From Xanthomonas euroxanthea (GTDB lineage Bacteria > Pseudomonadota > Gammaproteobacteria > Xanthomonadales > Xanthomonadaceae), in contig NZ_UIHB01000002.1 in NCBI RefSeq assembly GCF_900476395.1, forward strand, positions 62,001 to 126,000: a stretch of DNA of 64,000 nt, given 5' to 3'. Every line of letters starts with the position of its first letter. Position 1 is the stretch's first letter. Below are positions 17,834 to 24,450 of this stretch, piece by piece. The position numbers and the translations under genes were made by a program. The notes under the pieces were generated by a model. It saw nothing but the letters and a program-made list of their open reading frames with translations. It was not told the DNA's origin and ran no database searches.

Positions 17834-18967
17834 ATGACCAGTGACGTACTGCAACTGACCTGTGAGCTGATCGCACGCGCCTCGGTGACACCGGACGATG
17901 CCGGCTGCCAGGCGCTGATTGCGCAACGCCTGGAGGCCGCCGGATTCACCTGCGAGCACCTGCGCCTGGGCGAGGTCGACAATCTGTGGGCCACGCATGG
18001 CAGCGGTGCGCCGGTGCTGGTGCTGCTCGGGCACACCGATGTGGTGCCGCCGGGACCGCGCGAGGCGTGGACCAGCGATCCGTTCGATCCGCAGATCCGC
18101 GATGGTGTGCTGTACGGGCGCGGCACGGCCGACATGAAGGGCAGCGTGGCCGCCTTCGCGATCGCTGCCGAACAGGTCGCCGCCGCCCATCCGCAGCATG
18201 CCGGCACGCTGGCGGTGTTGCTGACTTCCGATGAGGAAGGCGATGCCATCGATGGCGTGCGGCGCGTGGCCGAGCTGTTGCGCACGCGCGGGCAGGCGAT
18301 CGACTGGTGCATCACCGGCGAGCCCTCGTCCACCGAGCGGCTGGGCGACCTGCTGCGCGTGGGCCGTCGCGGCAGTCTGTCCGGCACGCTGACGGTGAAA
18401 GGCGTGCAGGGGCATGTGGCGTATCCGCACAAGGCGCGCAATCCGATCCATCTGGCCGCGCCGGCATTGGCCGAGCTGGTGGCACGGCAGTGGGACGAGG
18501 GTTTCGAGAGTTTTCCGCCGACCAGTCTGCAAATTTCCAACATCCATGCCGGCACCGGCGCCAATAACGTGATTCCGGGCGAGCTGCAGGTGGCCTTCAA
18601 TCTGCGCTACACCCCGCTGTGGGATGCGCCGCGGCTGGAAGCGGAGATCGTCGCATTGCTGGATCGCCACGGGCTGGACTATGCGCTGCGCTGGCATCGC
18701 AGCGGCGAGCCGTTCTATACCCCGGAAGGGCGCCTGCGCAGCGTCGCACGCGAGGTGCTGGGCCAGTTTGCCGGCGCGCCCCCGGAAGAAAGCACCGGCG
18801 GCGGCACCTCCGATGCACGCTTCATCGCACCGTTGGGCGCGCAGTGCATCGAAGTCGGCCCGGTCAACGCCAGCATCCATCAGGTCGACGAGCATGTACG
18901 CGTGGCCGATCTGCAGGCCTTGCCGGCGCTGTACCGCAGCCTGATCGAGCGGCTGCTGGTCGACTGA
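17834..18967 (+). CDS. dapE: Succinyl-diaminopimelate desuccinylase
   Basis: A zinc peptidase-fold enzyme (M20) that removes succinate in the lysine/meso-DAP pathway, two steps after DapD. The 377-residue product has [12 protein letters not shown] with a metal His near residue 68, [15 protein letters not shown] with the bridging Asp, [13 protein letters not shown] with the catalytic Glu pair near 133, and the dimerisation segment [14 protein letters not shown]. The C-terminal HQVDEHVRV supplies a further ligand. ATG 17834 follows GGAAGGA. It is 111 bp downstream of the ArsC-like gene. Confidence 0.97.
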
Positions 18968-19039
18968 ACTGCCTGGCTGCCGCCCTTGTTGCCGCTGAAA
19001 CAGTTGCGCCCGCGAAAACGAACGGTTAGCGTCGGCCAC

Positions 19040-19129
19040 ATGGTCTTCCAGCGCGCCAACCTCAATAACGCCAACCGCAACAATCTGCGCGCGAACAATC
19101 GTGCGCGGCCGATGCGGGTCTGCGACTAG
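19040..19129 (+). CDS. Asparagine-rich leader peptide of asnB
   Basis: A 29-codon frame, ATG 19040 to TAG 19127-19129, too short for routine gene calling. Eight of its 29 residues are Asn, clustered as N, NN, N, NN, NN between residues 7 and 20, with AAC and AAT both used; most of the others are Arg and Ala. It ends RPMRVCD. It lies 133 bp upstream of asparagine synthetase and immediately before a terminator hairpin. In the his, leu, trp and phe operons this arrangement marks ribosome-mediated attenuation. No Shine-Dalgarno sequence is evident, so translation may be leaderless or weak. Confidence 0.8.
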   Translation: MVFQRANLNNANRNNLRANNRARPMRVCD

Positions 19130-19189
19130 GCGACGTCCACCAAACGCCCAGGAATCAGAGAACCCGCATCGGCCGATGCGGGTTTTTTT
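19107..19189 (+). promoter_or_regulatory. Terminator/antiterminator attenuator of asnB
   Basis: A terminator stem AACCCGCATCGG (19161-19172) with CCGATGCGGGTT (19173-19184) is a perfect 12-bp inverted repeat running into seven T (19183-19189). The 3-prime arm string GGCCGATGCGGGT (19171-19183) occurs identically at 19107-19119, at the end of the leader-peptide frame. The upstream copy can therefore pair with the same 5-prime arm and block the terminator. A smaller hairpin, GCGCGC (19087-19092) with GTGCGC (19101-19106), encloses the last two Asn codons. A ribosome stalled on Asn codons leaves 19107-19119 free (read-through); one reaching the stop covers it (termination). Confidence 0.82.
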
Positions 19190-19261
19190 ATGGGTGTCAT
19201 TCTCGTGCAGCACGCTTTCCACCGGCCGCCAACCCCCGCAGTTTCATCCAGGAGTGTTTCC

Positions 19262-20956
19262 ATGTGTTCCATCTTCGGTATTTTCGGCCTGCAACCCGGT
19301 GACGATCTGCAGGCCTTGCGCCGGCAGGCACTGGAATGTTCGCAGCGGCAGCGCCATCGCGGACCCGACTGGAGCGGGGTGTATGTCGACACCGGCGCGA
19401 TCCTGGTGCACGAGCGCCTGGCCATCGTCGACCCGGCCGGCGGCTCGCAGCCCTTGTTGTCCGACGATGGCGCGCTTGCGCTGGCGGTGAATGGCGAGAT
19501 CTACAACCATCGCGAGCTCAGGCAGGAACTGGTGCAGCCGTACGCCTTCCAGACCGGCTCCGATTGCGAGGTGATCAACGCGCTGTACCGCGAGGATGCG
19601 CCGGCGTCCTACCTCAACCGCCTCAACGGCATCTTCGCGTTCGCGCTATGGGACAAGGCCGCCGGGCGGGTGATCATCGCGCGCGATCCGATCGGCGTGG
19701 TGCCGCTGTACTGGGGCCACGATCGCGAGGGCCGGCTGCGGGTGGCCTCGGAGCTGAAGTCGCTGGTGGACGATTGCGCCGATGCGGCGCAGTTCCCGCC
19801 GGGTCACTGGTACGACAGCGCCACCGGCGCATTGAGTCGCTATTACGAGCGTGCCTGGCGTGAATACGCCGAGGTGGAAGGCGTGCAGGTGCAGTTGCAG
19901 GAATTGCGCGAGGCCTTCGAGCGCGCGGTGCATCGTCAGTTGATGACCGATGTGCCGTATGGCGTGCTGCTGTCCGGTGGGCTGGATTCGTCGTTGGTCG
20001 CCGCGGTTGCCGCACGCTACGCGCGCCATCGCATCGAAGAGAACGACACCACCGAAGCCTGGTGGCCGCGCCTGCATTCGTTCGCGATCGGCTTGAAAGG
20101 CTCGCCGGACCTGGCCGCTGCAAAAGTCGCCGCCGCCGCACTGGGCACCGTGCATCACGGCTTCGAGTACAGCTTCGAAGAAGGCCTGGATGCGCTGCCC
20201 GAGGTGATCCGCCATATCGAGACCTACGACGTCACCACCATTCGCGCCTCCACGCCGATGTTCCTGCTGGCGCGCCGCATCAAGGCGATGGGCGTGAAGA
20301 TGGTGCTGTCGGGCGAAGGCAGCGACGAGATCTTCGGTGGCTATCTGTATTTCCACAAGGCACCGAACGCGCGCGAATTCCACGAGGAACTGGTACGCAA
20401 GCTGGATGCGCTCAACAACTACGATTGCCTGCGCGCCAACAAGTCGATGATGGCCTGGGGCGTGGAGCCGCGCGTGCCGTTCCTGGATCGCGAGTTCCTG
20501 GACGTGGCCATGCGCATGGACGCCAGCTTCAAGATGATCGACAAGACCAGCAGCGGCGCCACGCGGATGGAAAAAGGCGTGTTGCGCGAGGCGTTTGCCG
20601 GGTATCTGCCCGAATCCATCCTGTGGCGGCAGAAGGAGCAGTTCAGCGATGGCGTGGGCTATGGCTGGATCGATGGACTCAAGGCACATGCCGCCGCGCA
20701 GGTGAGCGACCGCGAGCTGGCTGCCGCTTCCAGGCGTTTTCCGGTCAATCCGCCGCAGACCAAGGAAGCGTATTTCTATCGCACGCTGTTCGAACAGTTC
20801 TTCCCCAGCCAGGCGGCCGCGGAGACGGTGCCGGGCGGCAAGTCGATCGCGTGTTCGTCGCCGACCGCGATCGCCTGGGATGCCAGCTTCGCCGCGATGG
20901 CCGATCCCTCCGGCCGTGCGATTGCCGGCGTGCACGAACAGGCGTTGGCGTCGTAA
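19262..20956 (+). CDS. asnB: Asparagine synthetase, glutamine-hydrolysing
   Basis: Makes Asn from Asp, ATP and glutamine amide. The 564-residue product begins MCSIFGIFG, so Cys2 is the glutaminase nucleophile after Met removal. The N-terminal domain carries QRHRGPDWSG, HERLAIVDPAGGSQPL and NGEIYNH. The synthetase domain starts near 200 with YGVLLSGGLDSSLVAAVA, the SGGLDSS pyrophosphate loop, and has LSGEGSDEIFGGYLYFH. Length and motifs match E. coli AsnB. ATG 19262 has AGGAG 7 bp upstream. An in-frame ATG at 19190 sits on the terminator U-tract and is unlikely. Expression is probably controlled by the Asn-rich leader upstream. Confidence 0.97.
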   Translation: MCSIFGIFGLQPGDDLQALRRQALECSQRQRHRGPDWSGVYVDTGAILVHERLAIVDPAGGSQPLLSDDGALALAVNGEIYNHRELRQELVQPYAFQTGSDCEVINALYREDAPASYLNRLNGIFAFALWDKAAGRVIIARDPIGVVPLYWGHDREGRLRVASELKSLVDDCADAAQFPPGHWYDSATGALSRYYERAWREYAEVEGVQVQLQELREAFERAVHRQLMTDVPYGVLLSGGLDSSLVAAVAARYARHRIEENDTTEAWWPRLHSFAIGLKGSPDLAAAKVAAAALGTVHHGFEYSFEEGLDALPEVIRHIETYDVTTIRASTPMFLLARRIKAMGVKMVLSGEGSDEIFGGYLYFHKAPNAREFHEELVRKLDALNNYDCLRANKSMMAWGVEPRVPFLDREFLDVAMRMDASFKMIDKTSSGATRMEKGVLREAFAGYLPESILWRQKEQFSDGVGYGWIDGLKAHAAAQVSDRELAAASRRFPVNPPQTKEAYFYRTLFEQFFPSQAAAETVPGGKSIACSSPTAIAWDASFAAMADPSGRAIAGVHEQALAS

Positions 20957-21025: not shown

Positions 21026-22075
21026 TCACTCGTGGCGCACGCAGTAGCCGTAGCGCTGCGGCTCGATATCCACACCGGCCACATCGGCCTGGTTGTTGCG
21101 CCACAGGTTCGGCTTGAAGTCGGCCGCAGTGCAGTTGGCGGCGCGGTCCACGCCGATGGTGTAGGTGAACGGCGTGTTGGAGAAGCGGTTGTTCTCGAAC
21201 ACGTTGTCCTGGCTCATGCTGTTGTCCCAGCACAGGATTTCCGGCGTGCGATAGCGGATGGCGCAGGCCAGGAAGACGCCGGCGACCTTGTTGCCGTCGA
21301 ACTGATTGTTGCTGAAGCGGTTGCGGCGCGCGTCGGACAGATAGATGCCCTGGCTGCCGTTGCGCTCGAAGCGGTTGTTGCGGATCTCGCTGTCTTCCAG
21401 ATGTTCGGTGGTCAGGCCTGCGGCCACGTTGTCGTGGATGTAGTTGTTGACCATCGTGACCTTGGCGGTGCGGTTGAACGACACCCCGTCCCAGATCGCG
21501 CCGGAGACATCATTGTTTTCGATGGTGATCTCGCGCGTGTCGTACTCGCTCAGCAGGCAGGCGCTGCGGCACTTGTTGACCTGCAGGCCGGCCAGGCGAA
21601 TCCCCTGGCCGGAACGCACGACCACCGCGCTATTGCTCAGGTACGGGCGCTCGGGCATGAATTCCTTGTCGCCGGTGCTGGCGACGATCTGCATGTCCTC
21701 GATGCTGACATTGCGGATCACGCCGGTAGGCTGCTGGTTTTCGTAGTCGCCGACCACCAGCGCCGGTTGCTGCACGCCATCGGCCATGCGCAGCACCGTG
21801 GTCGGACCCGTGCCACGCAAGGTGAGATTGCCGCGGTGGATCGAGACCAGGCCATTGAGCGGAAATTCGCCTTTTTCCAGGCACAACACCGCACGCGTAT
21901 CGCTTTGCGGAAGCTTGTCGATGGCTTTTTGCAGATCCTGCCCGGGGCGCAGCTTGGCGGTGCAGGCCGCGACCGGCGCGTCCGGTGGGCCGGACTTGGC
22001 GGGCGGCGCTGCCGAGCAGGCAGTGGCAACGAGCAGGGGCAACAGGGCGGAAACGGAGCGGGCAAGCTGAGGCAT
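21026..22075 (-). CDS. Secreted right-handed parallel beta-helix lipoprotein
   Basis: A 349-residue protein starting at ATG 22075 with a lipoprotein signal ending LLVATACS (Cys20). The body is a right-handed parallel beta-helix of the pectate-lyase-like/NosD type: repeated turns such as NVSIEDMQIV, ITIENNDVSGAIWDGVSF, VTMVNNYIHDNVAAGL, SEIRNNRFERNGSQGIYLS and NRFSNNQFDGNKVAGVFL. The N-terminal CTAKLRPGQDLQKAIDKLP is the usual capping helix. It carries extra Cys in later turns. This fold binds or cleaves polysaccharide, but I see no recognisable catalytic triad. It converges on asnB. Confidence 0.8.
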   Translation of the reverse strand: MPQLARSVSALLPLLVATACSAAPPAKSGPPDAPVAACTAKLRPGQDLQKAIDKLPQSDTRAVLCLEKGEFPLNGLVSIHRGNLTLRGTGPTTVLRMADGVQQPALVVGDYENQQPTGVIRNVSIEDMQIVASTGDKEFMPERPYLSNSAVVVRSGQGIRLAGLQVNKCRSACLLSEYDTREITIENNDVSGAIWDGVSFNRTAKVTMVNNYIHDNVAAGLTTEHLEDSEIRNNRFERNGSQGIYLSDARRNRFSNNQFDGNKVAGVFLACAIRYRTPEILCWDNSMSQDNVFENNRFSNTPFTYTIGVDRAANCTAADFKPNLWRNNQADVAGVDIEPQRYGYCVRHE

Positions 22076-22305
22076 GCGGATTCCGGTCAGTGGGGGGAAG
22101 AGGGCGATCGTGTGGAAACACTTCCAGATCGCGACGGCCTCTAGTGTGTCCCACCGGACGTTAAAGTCTGGCTGATTCCGGCCGGCCTGATTCGGCGCAG
22201 GTTCATTGCACTGTCGTGGTCGAGGCCGCAATCGTGCATGCGGTGGCCGACGAACGTCACACTTGAGCAACGTTCGAGACCTGCACAGACGCGTGCTCGC
22301 CCTGC

Positions 22306-24450
22306 TCAGAAATCGTAAGCCAGCTGCGCGTAAATGCGGCGCGGTTCGCCAGGAAAGTGGCCGGTGCGCTCAGTGAACCCGCTGACGGCGTACACCTTGT
22401 CGAACAGGTTCTTGACGTTGACCTGCAGCTTCCAGGCATCCCATTGCGTCTGCCAGCTGATGTCGAAGATGGCATACGGCTTGACGCGCTGGCCTTCCAG
22501 GCTGACCCGCTCGCCCACATAGTCGGCACCGAAGGCAATTGCCGAGTTCCAGGCCGGCAGGTCGTAGCGCGTCCACAGGCCGAAGGTGTTGCGCGGTGCA
22601 TTGGCGAAGCGGTCGCCGGACGCGTTGGTGATGCCGTTGGTGCCCGCATCCAGCACGCGCGCATCGTTGTAGGCATAGGTCAGGTTGAGCACCCAACGCT
22701 CGGTGAGGTCGGCCAGCAGATCCACTTCCAGGCCTTCGCTGCGCACCAGGCCGAGCGCGGCGAGTTGATTGACCCCAGCGACGATGCTGCCGTCGGCCTG
22801 CACGATGTTGCTGCGTTCGATGCGATACAGCGCGGTGTTGAGCGTCAGCCCGCCGTCGTTGAGCGCGGTCTTCAGGCCTACTTCCCACTGCGTGCTGCGC
22901 TCGGGATCGAACGGGCCACCGACGCTGCTGTCCTGATTGGCCGCATCCTGCGGCAGGAAGCCGCTGGCATAACTGGCGTACGCGTTGACGCCATCGCGCA
23001 GCACGAAGGTGCTGCCCACACGCCAGCTGAGATCGTTGCCGGTGACGCGCGAGCCGTCCAGCCGGTTGTCGTCCTTGAAGCCGTCCCAACGCAGTCCGGC
23101 CATCGCAAACCAGCGCGGCGTCAGCGTGAGTTCGTCCTGCAGATACGCGCCGTAGCGCTGGCTGCGCGTGCTGGTGGCGCGCCAGGGCAGGCTGTCCAGA
23201 CCGTAGTCGTAAAAGCCGCTGCGCCCGTACACCGGGTTGAACAGATCGATACCCGGCACCGGCCCGCGCACGCGGCCGGTGTCGGCGGTGTTGGCGGTCT
23301 GCGCGCGGAAATCCGCATCCAGCCGATAGTAGTCCGCGCCCATCAGCAGCTTGTGCTCGATCGCGCCGATGCGGGTGCGGAACACGGCGTTGACGTTGCT
23401 GGAGATCGCATCGTTGTCGCGGAACTGGTTGCGCAACTGCCGCGTCATCCATTCGGCGGTGCCGTCGCCATCGCGGTCGATCAGGCCCATCGGCTCGTGA
23501 TAGATCTGATGCTCGTCGTTCTTGAACCAGCGCAGCGCCATGTCCACGTCCCACGCATCCGACGGCGCAAAGCGGTACTGCGCGAATGCGACCTTGGCGC
23601 GCATGTCGAGGAAATCGGTGGGTTCGTTGTGGTTCCAGCGCCGGTCGGTGAGGAAGTTGCCGTCGTCATCCACCGGCACGCCACGCAGGCGATTGCCGCC
23701 CAGGTTCTGGGTGATGTCGGTGTACTGCAAGGTGAGCTCGCCGGTCTGGCCGATATCGAACGCCACCGACGCATCGCCGATCTGGCTCTGGCTATCGGTG
23801 TTGCGGCGAAAACCGTCCTCGCCATCGGCATAGGCGCCGACGCGGTAGCGAATGCGTCCGTCGTCGCGTGCCGGCCCGGTGGCCTCGAACGAGGCGGCTC
23901 CGAAGGATTGATTGCCCGCCTGCAGCTCCACCCGACGCGCGGCCTGATGGCCGGGCTTGCGGGTGACGTAATTGATGACGCCGCCGGGTTCGCCGCCGCC
24001 GTACAGCGCACCGGCCGGACCCTTGAGCACTTCCACGCGTTCGATATTGAACAACTGCGGCACCGAGAAGCCGGCATACGGATCGCCGCGCAATCCGTCG
24101 TACAGCACGTTTTCCTGGCGGAATCCGCGCAGGGTGACGCCGGCATAGCTGAAGAAGCTGATGCCGCTGATGCTGCGATACAGGTCGGTGATCTGGCGTG
24201 CGGCCTGGTCGTCGATCAGTTCGCGCGGCAGTACCTGGACCGACTGCGGAACCAGCGCCAACGGCGTGTCGGTGCGTGTGGCCACTGCGGCGTCGTCGGA
24301 TTTGTACAGCGTCTGCGCACGGCCCACGACCTGGACGCCATCCAGGTCGGTGACGGTTGCCGAGGTGCTGCCGTGTTGTTGAGCGAAGGCGCGGGGCGAA
24401 GGCAGAGCGAAGGCGGCGGCGAGCGCGGTGACAAGGAGCGTGGGGCGCAT
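22306..24450 (-). CDS. TonB-dependent outer-membrane receptor, siderophore type
   Basis: A 714-residue beta-barrel receptor. The signal peptide ends PRAFA. The plug has TPLALVPQSVQVLPRELIDDQ, GFRQENVLYDGLRGDP and IERVEVLKGPAGALYGGGEPGGVINYVTR, typical of ferric-siderophore receptors (FhuA/FpvA group), so transport of Fe-siderophore powered by TonB is the likely role. The barrel ends YAQLAYDF with a terminal Phe. A TonB box is not obvious; GVQVVGR near residue 38 is a candidate. A Fur-box-like sequence overlaps the start region. The ligand cannot be deduced. Confidence 0.92.
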   Translation of the reverse strand: MRPTLLVTALAAAFALPSPRAFAQQHGSTSATVTDLDGVQVVGRAQTLYKSDDAAVATRTDTPLALVPQSVQVLPRELIDDQAARQITDLYRSISGISFFSYAGVTLRGFRQENVLYDGLRGDPYAGFSVPQLFNIERVEVLKGPAGALYGGGEPGGVINYVTRKPGHQAARRVELQAGNQSFGAASFEATGPARDDGRIRYRVGAYADGEDGFRRNTDSQSQIGDASVAFDIGQTGELTLQYTDITQNLGGNRLRGVPVDDDGNFLTDRRWNHNEPTDFLDMRAKVAFAQYRFAPSDAWDVDMALRWFKNDEHQIYHEPMGLIDRDGDGTAEWMTRQLRNQFRDNDAISSNVNAVFRTRIGAIEHKLLMGADYYRLDADFRAQTANTADTGRVRGPVPGIDLFNPVYGRSGFYDYGLDSLPWRATSTRSQRYGAYLQDELTLTPRWFAMAGLRWDGFKDDNRLDGSRVTGNDLSWRVGSTFVLRDGVNAYASYASGFLPQDAANQDSSVGGPFDPERSTQWEVGLKTALNDGGLTLNTALYRIERSNIVQADGSIVAGVNQLAALGLVRSEGLEVDLLADLTERWVLNLTYAYNDARVLDAGTNGITNASGDRFANAPRNTFGLWTRYDLPAWNSAIAFGADYVGERVSLEGQRVKPYAIFDISWQTQWDAWKLQVNVKNLFDKVYAVSGFTERTGHFPGEPRRIYAQLAYDF

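Follow-up and report, generated by a model that had tools for sequence, protein, structure and literature searches.

An asparagine-codon leader upstream of asnB in Xanthomonas euroxanthea and its relatives: a probable ribosome-mediated attenuator

The stretch of 64,000 nucleotides of Xanthomonas euroxanthea analysed here is called the window, and all positions given below refer to its forward strand, on which all the features of the locus lie. At the downstream end of the locus is asnB (19262-20956, 564 aa), which encodes a glutamine-hydrolysing asparagine synthase B according to NF006949 (868.5 bits against a cut-off of 499) and TIGR01536, which was also above its cut-off. Its start was taken as 19262 (MCSIFGIF), with the likely ribosome-binding site AGGAG at 19250-19254, 7 nt upstream; an ATG at 19190 is in frame with this start, with no stop in between. 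The gene seems to stand alone, as the next gene-like long frame downstream (21026-22270) is on the other strand. On the upstream side, dapE (named by eye) ends at 18967, just before the leader that is the subject of this work. An asparaginyl-tRNA synthetase is encoded in the genome (627.8 bits, cut-off 342.6), and so the level of asparagine should set that of Asn-tRNA directly.

Between dapE and asnB, a leader frame of 29 codons runs from ATG 19040 to TAG 19127-19129 and specifies the peptide MVFQRANLNNANRNNLRANNRARPMRVCD. It contains eight AAC or AAT codons, at 19058, 19064, 19067, 19073, 19079, 19082, 19094 and 19097, and we regard the segment 19058-19099 as the control codons on the basis of the sequence and its conservation in 29 leaders of the genus. 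On the two strands of the window, where frames of 15 to 60 codons end at 728 distinct stop codons, no other such frame has eight Asn codons. From base composition, the probability of at least eight Asn in 28 codons is 1.9e-9.

The leader frame is followed by AACCCGCATCGG at 19161-19172 and, directly after it, by CCGATGCGGG with seven T at 19173-19189. We call the former arm 3; by sequence and folds it would be shared, being the 5' arm of the terminator as well as the partner in the antiterminator. The latter is arm 4 with its T run (seven T at 19183-19189), the 3' arm of an intrinsic terminator as judged from sequence, fold and scan. The hairpin is a perfect 24-nt palindrome with a folding energy of -20.9 kcal/mol including its flanks (z of -4.0 against shuffles). 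Since the centre of such a palindrome cannot pair, it folds with a 4-nt loop instead of a 12-bp stem, and two of the seven T lie inside the palindrome. The perfect 12-bp stem with seven T described in the earlier note thus stands as regards the palindrome and the T run, but not as regards a stem paired through its centre. Arm 2, GGCCGATGCGGGT at 19107-19119, lies within the leader frame and recurs exactly at 19171-19183, so that it is a 13-nt copy of the terminator 3' arm; the exact copy and the covariation described below mark it as the putative 5' strand of the antiterminator. Both the 29-codon frame with eight Asn codons and the exact 13-bp copy at the leader end had been claimed before, and both were borne out at these positions.

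A terminator with an upstream copy of its 3' arm was found at this one site in the window and in none of 40 block-shuffled windows, and the pattern of arm 2, spacer and arm 3 has a single occurrence in the 4.9-Mb genome. A simple consensus scan of the window called neither a promoter nor a terminator at this locus. A third copy of CCGATGCGGGT was seen at window position 23366, inside a long frame far from asnB, and is probably due to chance. When the leader was folded alone, a 10-bp hairpin was obtained at 19085-19108, at whose loop the last two Asn codons lie (sequences of relatives were compared by eye), together with a candidate arm 1, CCGCA at 19075-19079, which pairs with TGCGG at 19113-19117 in arm 2. 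This 1:2 pairing, of 5 bp plus the local hairpin, might act as a weak protector; the z value of the leader-alone fold is -1.6, and 14 of 200 shuffles were as good.

Upstream of the leader ATG, a -35 box TTGCGC (19004-19009) is separated by 17 nt from a -10 box TAGCGT (19027-19032), which ends 7 nt before the start codon, and the predicted transcription start is at about 19039-19040. With a -10 box ending 6-7 nt before a start codon, transcription is expected to begin at the AUG or right next to it, and so the leader mRNA should be leaderless; judged from sequence, it probably is. The geometry is conserved: the motif TTG-17/18-nAnnnT-6/7-start was found in 99 of 131 distinct leaders, compared with 0.6% for each anchor shifted by 3-60 nt and a mean of 2.7 of 131 for common shifts. 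At six shifts between 35 and 54 nt the motif appeared in 15 to 47 loci. We account for this by alternative start codons in the same frame, located 36 and 51 nt further upstream in the genus, from which these shifts land on the true start. Of the 32 leaders lacking the motif, 21 belong to named Rhodanobacteraceae genera or to f12, an order family inferred to be Rhodanobacteraceae from its leaders, and three leaders (L117, L122, L191) have TCTAGT in the same place (by eye). The lack of a transcription start upstream of 19040 had been named as grounds for rejecting attenuation; the conserved promoter is predicted directly there.

Overlapping the -35 box, the element GTTGCC-N9-GTTGCG (18988-19008) forms a consensus over 33 loci of the genus and is a putative operator or promoter element. 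Several relatives read GTTGC-N4-6-GCAAC and then GTTGC in its place, and the GTTGC/GCAAC repeat was also noticed by eye in Stenotrophomonas, Pseudoxanthomonas and others. This repeat may bind a regulator.

For the comparison, we searched for AsnB in 35 genomes of the genus (35 of 35 matched), 297 of the family (280 matched), 160 of the order (97 matched at E 1e-150) and a class sample in which 4 of 185 matched at E 1e-150, three from Xanthomonadaceae and the fourth from outside the order. We examined 87 loci from the genus and the 280 matching family genomes, mostly the best-scoring ones plus picks across genera, 40 loci from the 97 order genomes, and the best 80 of 589 confirmed stretches from a collection of named genomes, which overlaps the genome set described above (L088 with L027, L089 with L040). 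An automatic caller asked for at least 3 Asn in 12 codons, a hairpin with T, and a leader-arm pairing of -11 kcal/mol or better. Two partial matches elsewhere in the same genome (L002, L003) were dropped throughout, and L187 was not aligned to the normal AsnB start. Identical sequences were merged to give the 131 distinct leaders, from which L145, L153, L155 and L164 were removed by hand; L213 and L214 are not included there, nor in the codon conservation and DapE-neighbour counts. Choosing the leader start by Asn density was tried and given up, as an internal GTG was picked in many Lysobacter and Rhodanobacter leaders. The start with a promoter was used where available, and the choice is doubtful in a few loci, e.g. 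L022 and L050.

All 35 Xanthomonas genomes carry the leader, the terminator and the arm. The caller passed 82 of 87 Xanthomonadaceae loci, and it passed only 3 of 848 control stretches, two of which were the locus itself. Leader, hairpin and arm are visible in three of the five misses, L038, L047 and L064, which seem to fail on the T count, and also in L069, where the leader ends 269 nt before asnB and is beyond the range of the caller. The remaining miss, L084, keeps an Asn-codon leader and the terminator and has lost the leader arm, so that this variant might terminate constitutively. Among the best 80 of 589 named stretches, 36 of the first 41 passed and 3 of the remaining 39 (L149, L150, L165). 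Two of the named misses, L097 (T count) and L111 (leader end 283 nt away), have a visible leader and hairpin, and no leader with hairpin was found upstream of asnB in L102, L112 and L127, titled as a Holophagales MAG, Rhodococcus and a Deltaproteobacteria MAG. The AsnB of these three is 74-81% identical to the query, as would be seen with misnamed bins or gene transfer.

Within the same best 80 of 589, the named carriers include Xanthomonas cannabis, Pseudoxanthomonas, Stenotrophomonas, Luteimonas, Thermomonas, Lysobacter, Arenimonas, Rhodanobacter, Dyella, Fulvimonas and Frateuria, of which Dyella and Rhodanobacter belong to the Rhodanobacteraceae, and the loci of Shewanella, Colwellia, Vibrio and Aeromonas in this set fail the caller. 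In the wider order 17 of 40 loci passed, distributed by family as f1 4/5, f12 9/10, f2 3/3 and f7 1/9, with no passes in f9 (0/10) or in f4, f5 and f10 (0/1 each). The arrangement is present in most of the sampled Xanthomonadaceae and Rhodanobacteraceae loci and rare beyond them. Outside these main families, L175 (order, f7) and L165 (titled a Rubrivirga MAG) have Asn-containing frames and terminators, possibly as separate or transferred asnB leaders. The earlier note had taken loss of the Asn codons or of the alternative pairing in close relatives as evidence against its reading; both are kept in all 35 Xanthomonas genomes and also in distant relatives. Of the three genera it had singled out for alignment, Xanthomonas and Stenotrophomonas carry the leader and Xylella was not identified among the loci examined, while the spread is wider than those genera and reaches Rhodanobacteraceae.

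Across the 131 distinct leaders, the number of Asn per leader has a median of 6 and is at least 5 in 118, with 448 AAC and 389 AAT codons in use. A codon-by-codon comparison was performed on 29 of 33 genus leaders, the other four being dropped as they are not 29 codons long. Codons 12, 19 and 20 encode Asn in all 29 leaders of equal length, and codons 14, 9, 10 and 7 do so in 28, 27, 26 and 25 of them, respectively; the region of arm 1 holds Asn 12 and Asn 14 from this series with Arg 13 (29 of 29) between them. Codons 2-5, 8 and 15 are variable, and AAC and AAT are exchanged at codons 7, 10, 14, 15 and 19. Asn is thus kept while its neighbours drift, with both codons used, and this pattern is consistent, at the level of sequence, with selection acting on Asn as an amino acid.

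The leader arm and the terminator 5' arm change together. Xanthomonas and Stenotrophomonas share ACCCGCATC as the terminator 5' arm, several Lysobacter have GCCCGCGC and others GGCCTGCACT, and Rhodanobacter and Dyella have GGCCCGC. Over 70 distinct combinations, position -1 is A-T in 13, G-C in 37, G-T in 8 and unpaired in 12, and pairing at position -2 is limited to 35. A T replaces C in arm 3 at position 2 in four combinations and at position 4 in one; there the leader arm has A and arm 4 keeps G, giving a G-T pair. An A at position 3 of arm 3 in L074 is unmatched by the leader arm. This column-wise pairing, from which L165 was left out, is biased to own pairs, because the placement was optimised on them. 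The permutation test re-optimises the placement for every permuted pair, and when the leader ends were permuted among the arms, 0 of 2000 permutations reached the observed pairing (104 distinct items, z of 7.0). The median z falls to 2.2 when each distinct arm core is represented by a single leader; as there are only 8 such cores, the independent events are modest in number. The covarying stem arms that the earlier note had suggested looking for in relatives are thus present. Duplex energy against shuffled leaders (51 of 115 leaders with at most 1 of 100 shuffles as good) and arm swaps (own arm 3 better than arms of other classes in 4150 of 6175) were also tried, and were set aside in favour of column-wise pairing and permutation as being too blunt in GC-rich sequence. 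In GC-rich leaders, pairing energy alone is weak evidence.

We propose that ribosome-mediated attenuation at this leader couples the transcription of asnB to the supply of charged tRNA-Asn, a reading to which we assign a probability of about 0.92. Transcription would begin at or next to the leader AUG, and a ribosome would follow the RNA polymerase through the leader. When Asn-tRNA is scarce, the ribosome would stall on an Asn codon, leaving arm 2 just ahead free to pair with arm 3 as the latter emerges; no terminator would form, and asnB would be transcribed. When Asn-tRNA is plentiful, the ribosome would reach TAG 19127 and cover arm 2, arm 3 would pair with arm 4, and termination would follow at about 19189. 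The proposal is supported by sequence and comparison, namely by the frame, its Asn codons, the terminator, the covarying leader arm, conservation and the promoter geometry; from these we infer the stalling, the folding order, the asparagine response and the leaderless initiation. It was found that an Asn-rich short frame stands before an asparagine synthase gene, that by sequence and fold an intrinsic terminator lies between them, that a putative antiterminator arm exclusive with the terminator sits at the frame end, and that in truncated folds arm 2 would be free with the ribosome at a stall and, in most loci, covered with it at the stop. That the downstream gene makes the very amino acid of the leader codons also counts for an attenuator.

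The switch was evaluated by folding. When the transcript ends at 19189, arm 3 belongs to the antiterminator in the structure of minimum free energy with the ribosome at 8 of 8 Asn codons, and to the terminator with the ribosome at the stop codon. When the transcript extends to 6 nt past arm 4, the equilibrium fold has the terminator with the ribosome at the stop codon in 129 of 129 loci (L165 and L175 were left out of these tests), but with the ribosome at the last Asn codon the antiterminator prevails in just 12 of the 129, and just 27 of the 129 have it at 70% or more of their Asn codons; the leader in the window scores 2 of 8. With the transcript stopped after arm 3, on the assumption of a ribosome footprint of 13 nt from the first base of the A-site codon, 804 of 829 Asn codons leave at least 5 of the arm-3 core paired upstream, and at the last Asn codon this holds in 110 of 129 loci. 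With the ribosome at the stop, fewer than 5 are paired upstream in 109 of 129, and 20 of 129 still have at least 5. Since folding at equilibrium mostly favours the terminator once the leader is complete, the switch would have to rely on the order of events during transcription, and it is the order of folding that sets the switch in classical attenuators. The bias to termination at equilibrium genuinely restricts what can be learnt from folding. The stalled-ribosome model of the earlier note, which had suggested folding the RNA, is thus backed by anatomy, conservation, arm covariation and the truncated folds, with the asparagine response as its conditional part; the fold up to 19189 agrees with it at every Asn codon, and the equilibrium folds of most relatives do not favour the antiterminator.

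Other readings of the locus can be weighed against these data. The hairpin could be a mere terminator of the upstream dapE operon with an incidental Asn-rich frame beside it, as the end of dapE at 18967 adjoins the leader and the scan saw no terminator between the two. However, a DapE match was present within the fetched stretch in 10 of the 80 named loci (best 80 of 589), several of them more than 1 kb before the leader, and nevertheless the leader is found in 36 of the first 41 loci of that set, so that it stays with asnB where dapE is elsewhere. Given also that the leader has its own conserved promoter and that its arm covaries with arm 3, we give the dapE-terminator reading next to no credence. 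A different signal could be sensed, such as arginyl-tRNA or the general speed of translation, since six Arg codons are present in the leader in the window, and codons 13, 17, 21 and 26 encode Arg in 29, 28, 27 and 29 of the 29 genus leaders. The late Arg codons, however, are located within or beside the hairpin and arm 2, and their sequence is under constraint from RNA pairing; in Dyella, leaders like L104 and L122 have one to three Arg but 6-8 Asn, and it is Asn that is abundant throughout and is made by the controlled gene. We consider such a signal very improbable.

Finally, the leader could act on translation, or in trans as a small peptide or small RNA, with termination being secondary. 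The predicted termination product is a 150-nt RNA starting with AUG, for which Sinorhizobium meliloti trpL offers a precedent (PMC7298713). Against this, codons 2-5 near the N-terminus of the peptide drift, conservation falls on the parts required for attenuation, and the likely asnB ribosome-binding site is 60 nt past the T run; this reading, too, has a very slim chance of being right. Alongside attenuation of asnB, which we prefer, it is unlikely that the 150-nt leaderless RNA left by termination also acts in trans on other messages.

Ribosome-mediated attenuators of the E. coli type control the his, trp, leu, ilv, thr and phe operons. The asnB leader resembles them in being rich in codons for the product amino acid and in its antiterminator arm near the frame end, its shared arm and its terminator, and it differs in the amino acid asparagine, the single gene, the probable leaderless start and the weak candidate protector pairing of 5 bp. 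Mycobacterial cysteine attenuators with leaderless poly-Cys frames were reportedly described by Canestrari and colleagues in 2020, a work cited in PMC13236596. Compared by title, they share a leaderless short frame and a run of one codon controlling downstream genes, and differ in the amino acid, cysteine, and in the mycobacterial host. The Asn T-box leaders of Firmicutes sense tRNA-Asn before asparagine genes and bind the tRNA directly, needing no leader peptide; both they and, presumably, the asnB leader sense the asparagine supply through tRNA-Asn, the latter by way of a leader peptide. The S. meliloti trpL attenuator RNA starts with its ATG and acts in trans, according to PMC7298713. It is alike in beginning at the leader ATG and differs in that it concerns tryptophan and an alphaproteobacterium, and in that its 5' end is stated in that paper, while the one of the asnB leader is predicted. 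Together with the mycobacterial case, it provides a precedent for leaderless attenuators.

In the Rfam covariance models run on the window, no family reached its gathering threshold (Leu_leader 18.9 bits against 50, Thr_leader 17.9 against 55), and the T-box model had no match at the locus or elsewhere in the window. The earlier note knew of no established asparagine attenuator, and likewise no report of one was found in searches of the open-licence literature. In a word search of the main texts of two surveys (PMC2965389 and PMC1262725), the word asparagine was absent; the main text of the former mentions Xanthomonas once, for an rpsL leader. A Xanthomonas small-RNA study (PMC3771888) gives an AsnB2 gene, which may or may not be the asnB described here, with ratios of 1.0, and this has no bearing on attenuation. 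The proposed mechanism is that of a classical attenuator; with no Rfam fit and no literature report, its presumed amino-acid specificity is new as far as these searches go, and its start is probably leaderless. We think it fairly likely that this is the first asparagine-specific ribosome-mediated attenuator, that it is leaderless, and that it dates back to the common ancestor of Xanthomonadaceae and Rhodanobacteraceae and has persisted while its arms were rewritten.

The predicted leaderless start raises the question of how initiation at a 5'-terminal AUG couples to RNA polymerase fast enough for attenuation. If the proposal is true, asparagine would join the amino acids that are controlled by ribosome stalling in a leader, the control would span a whole branch of the Gammaproteobacteria including crop pathogens, and charged tRNA-Asn could be read out directly in these bacteria.
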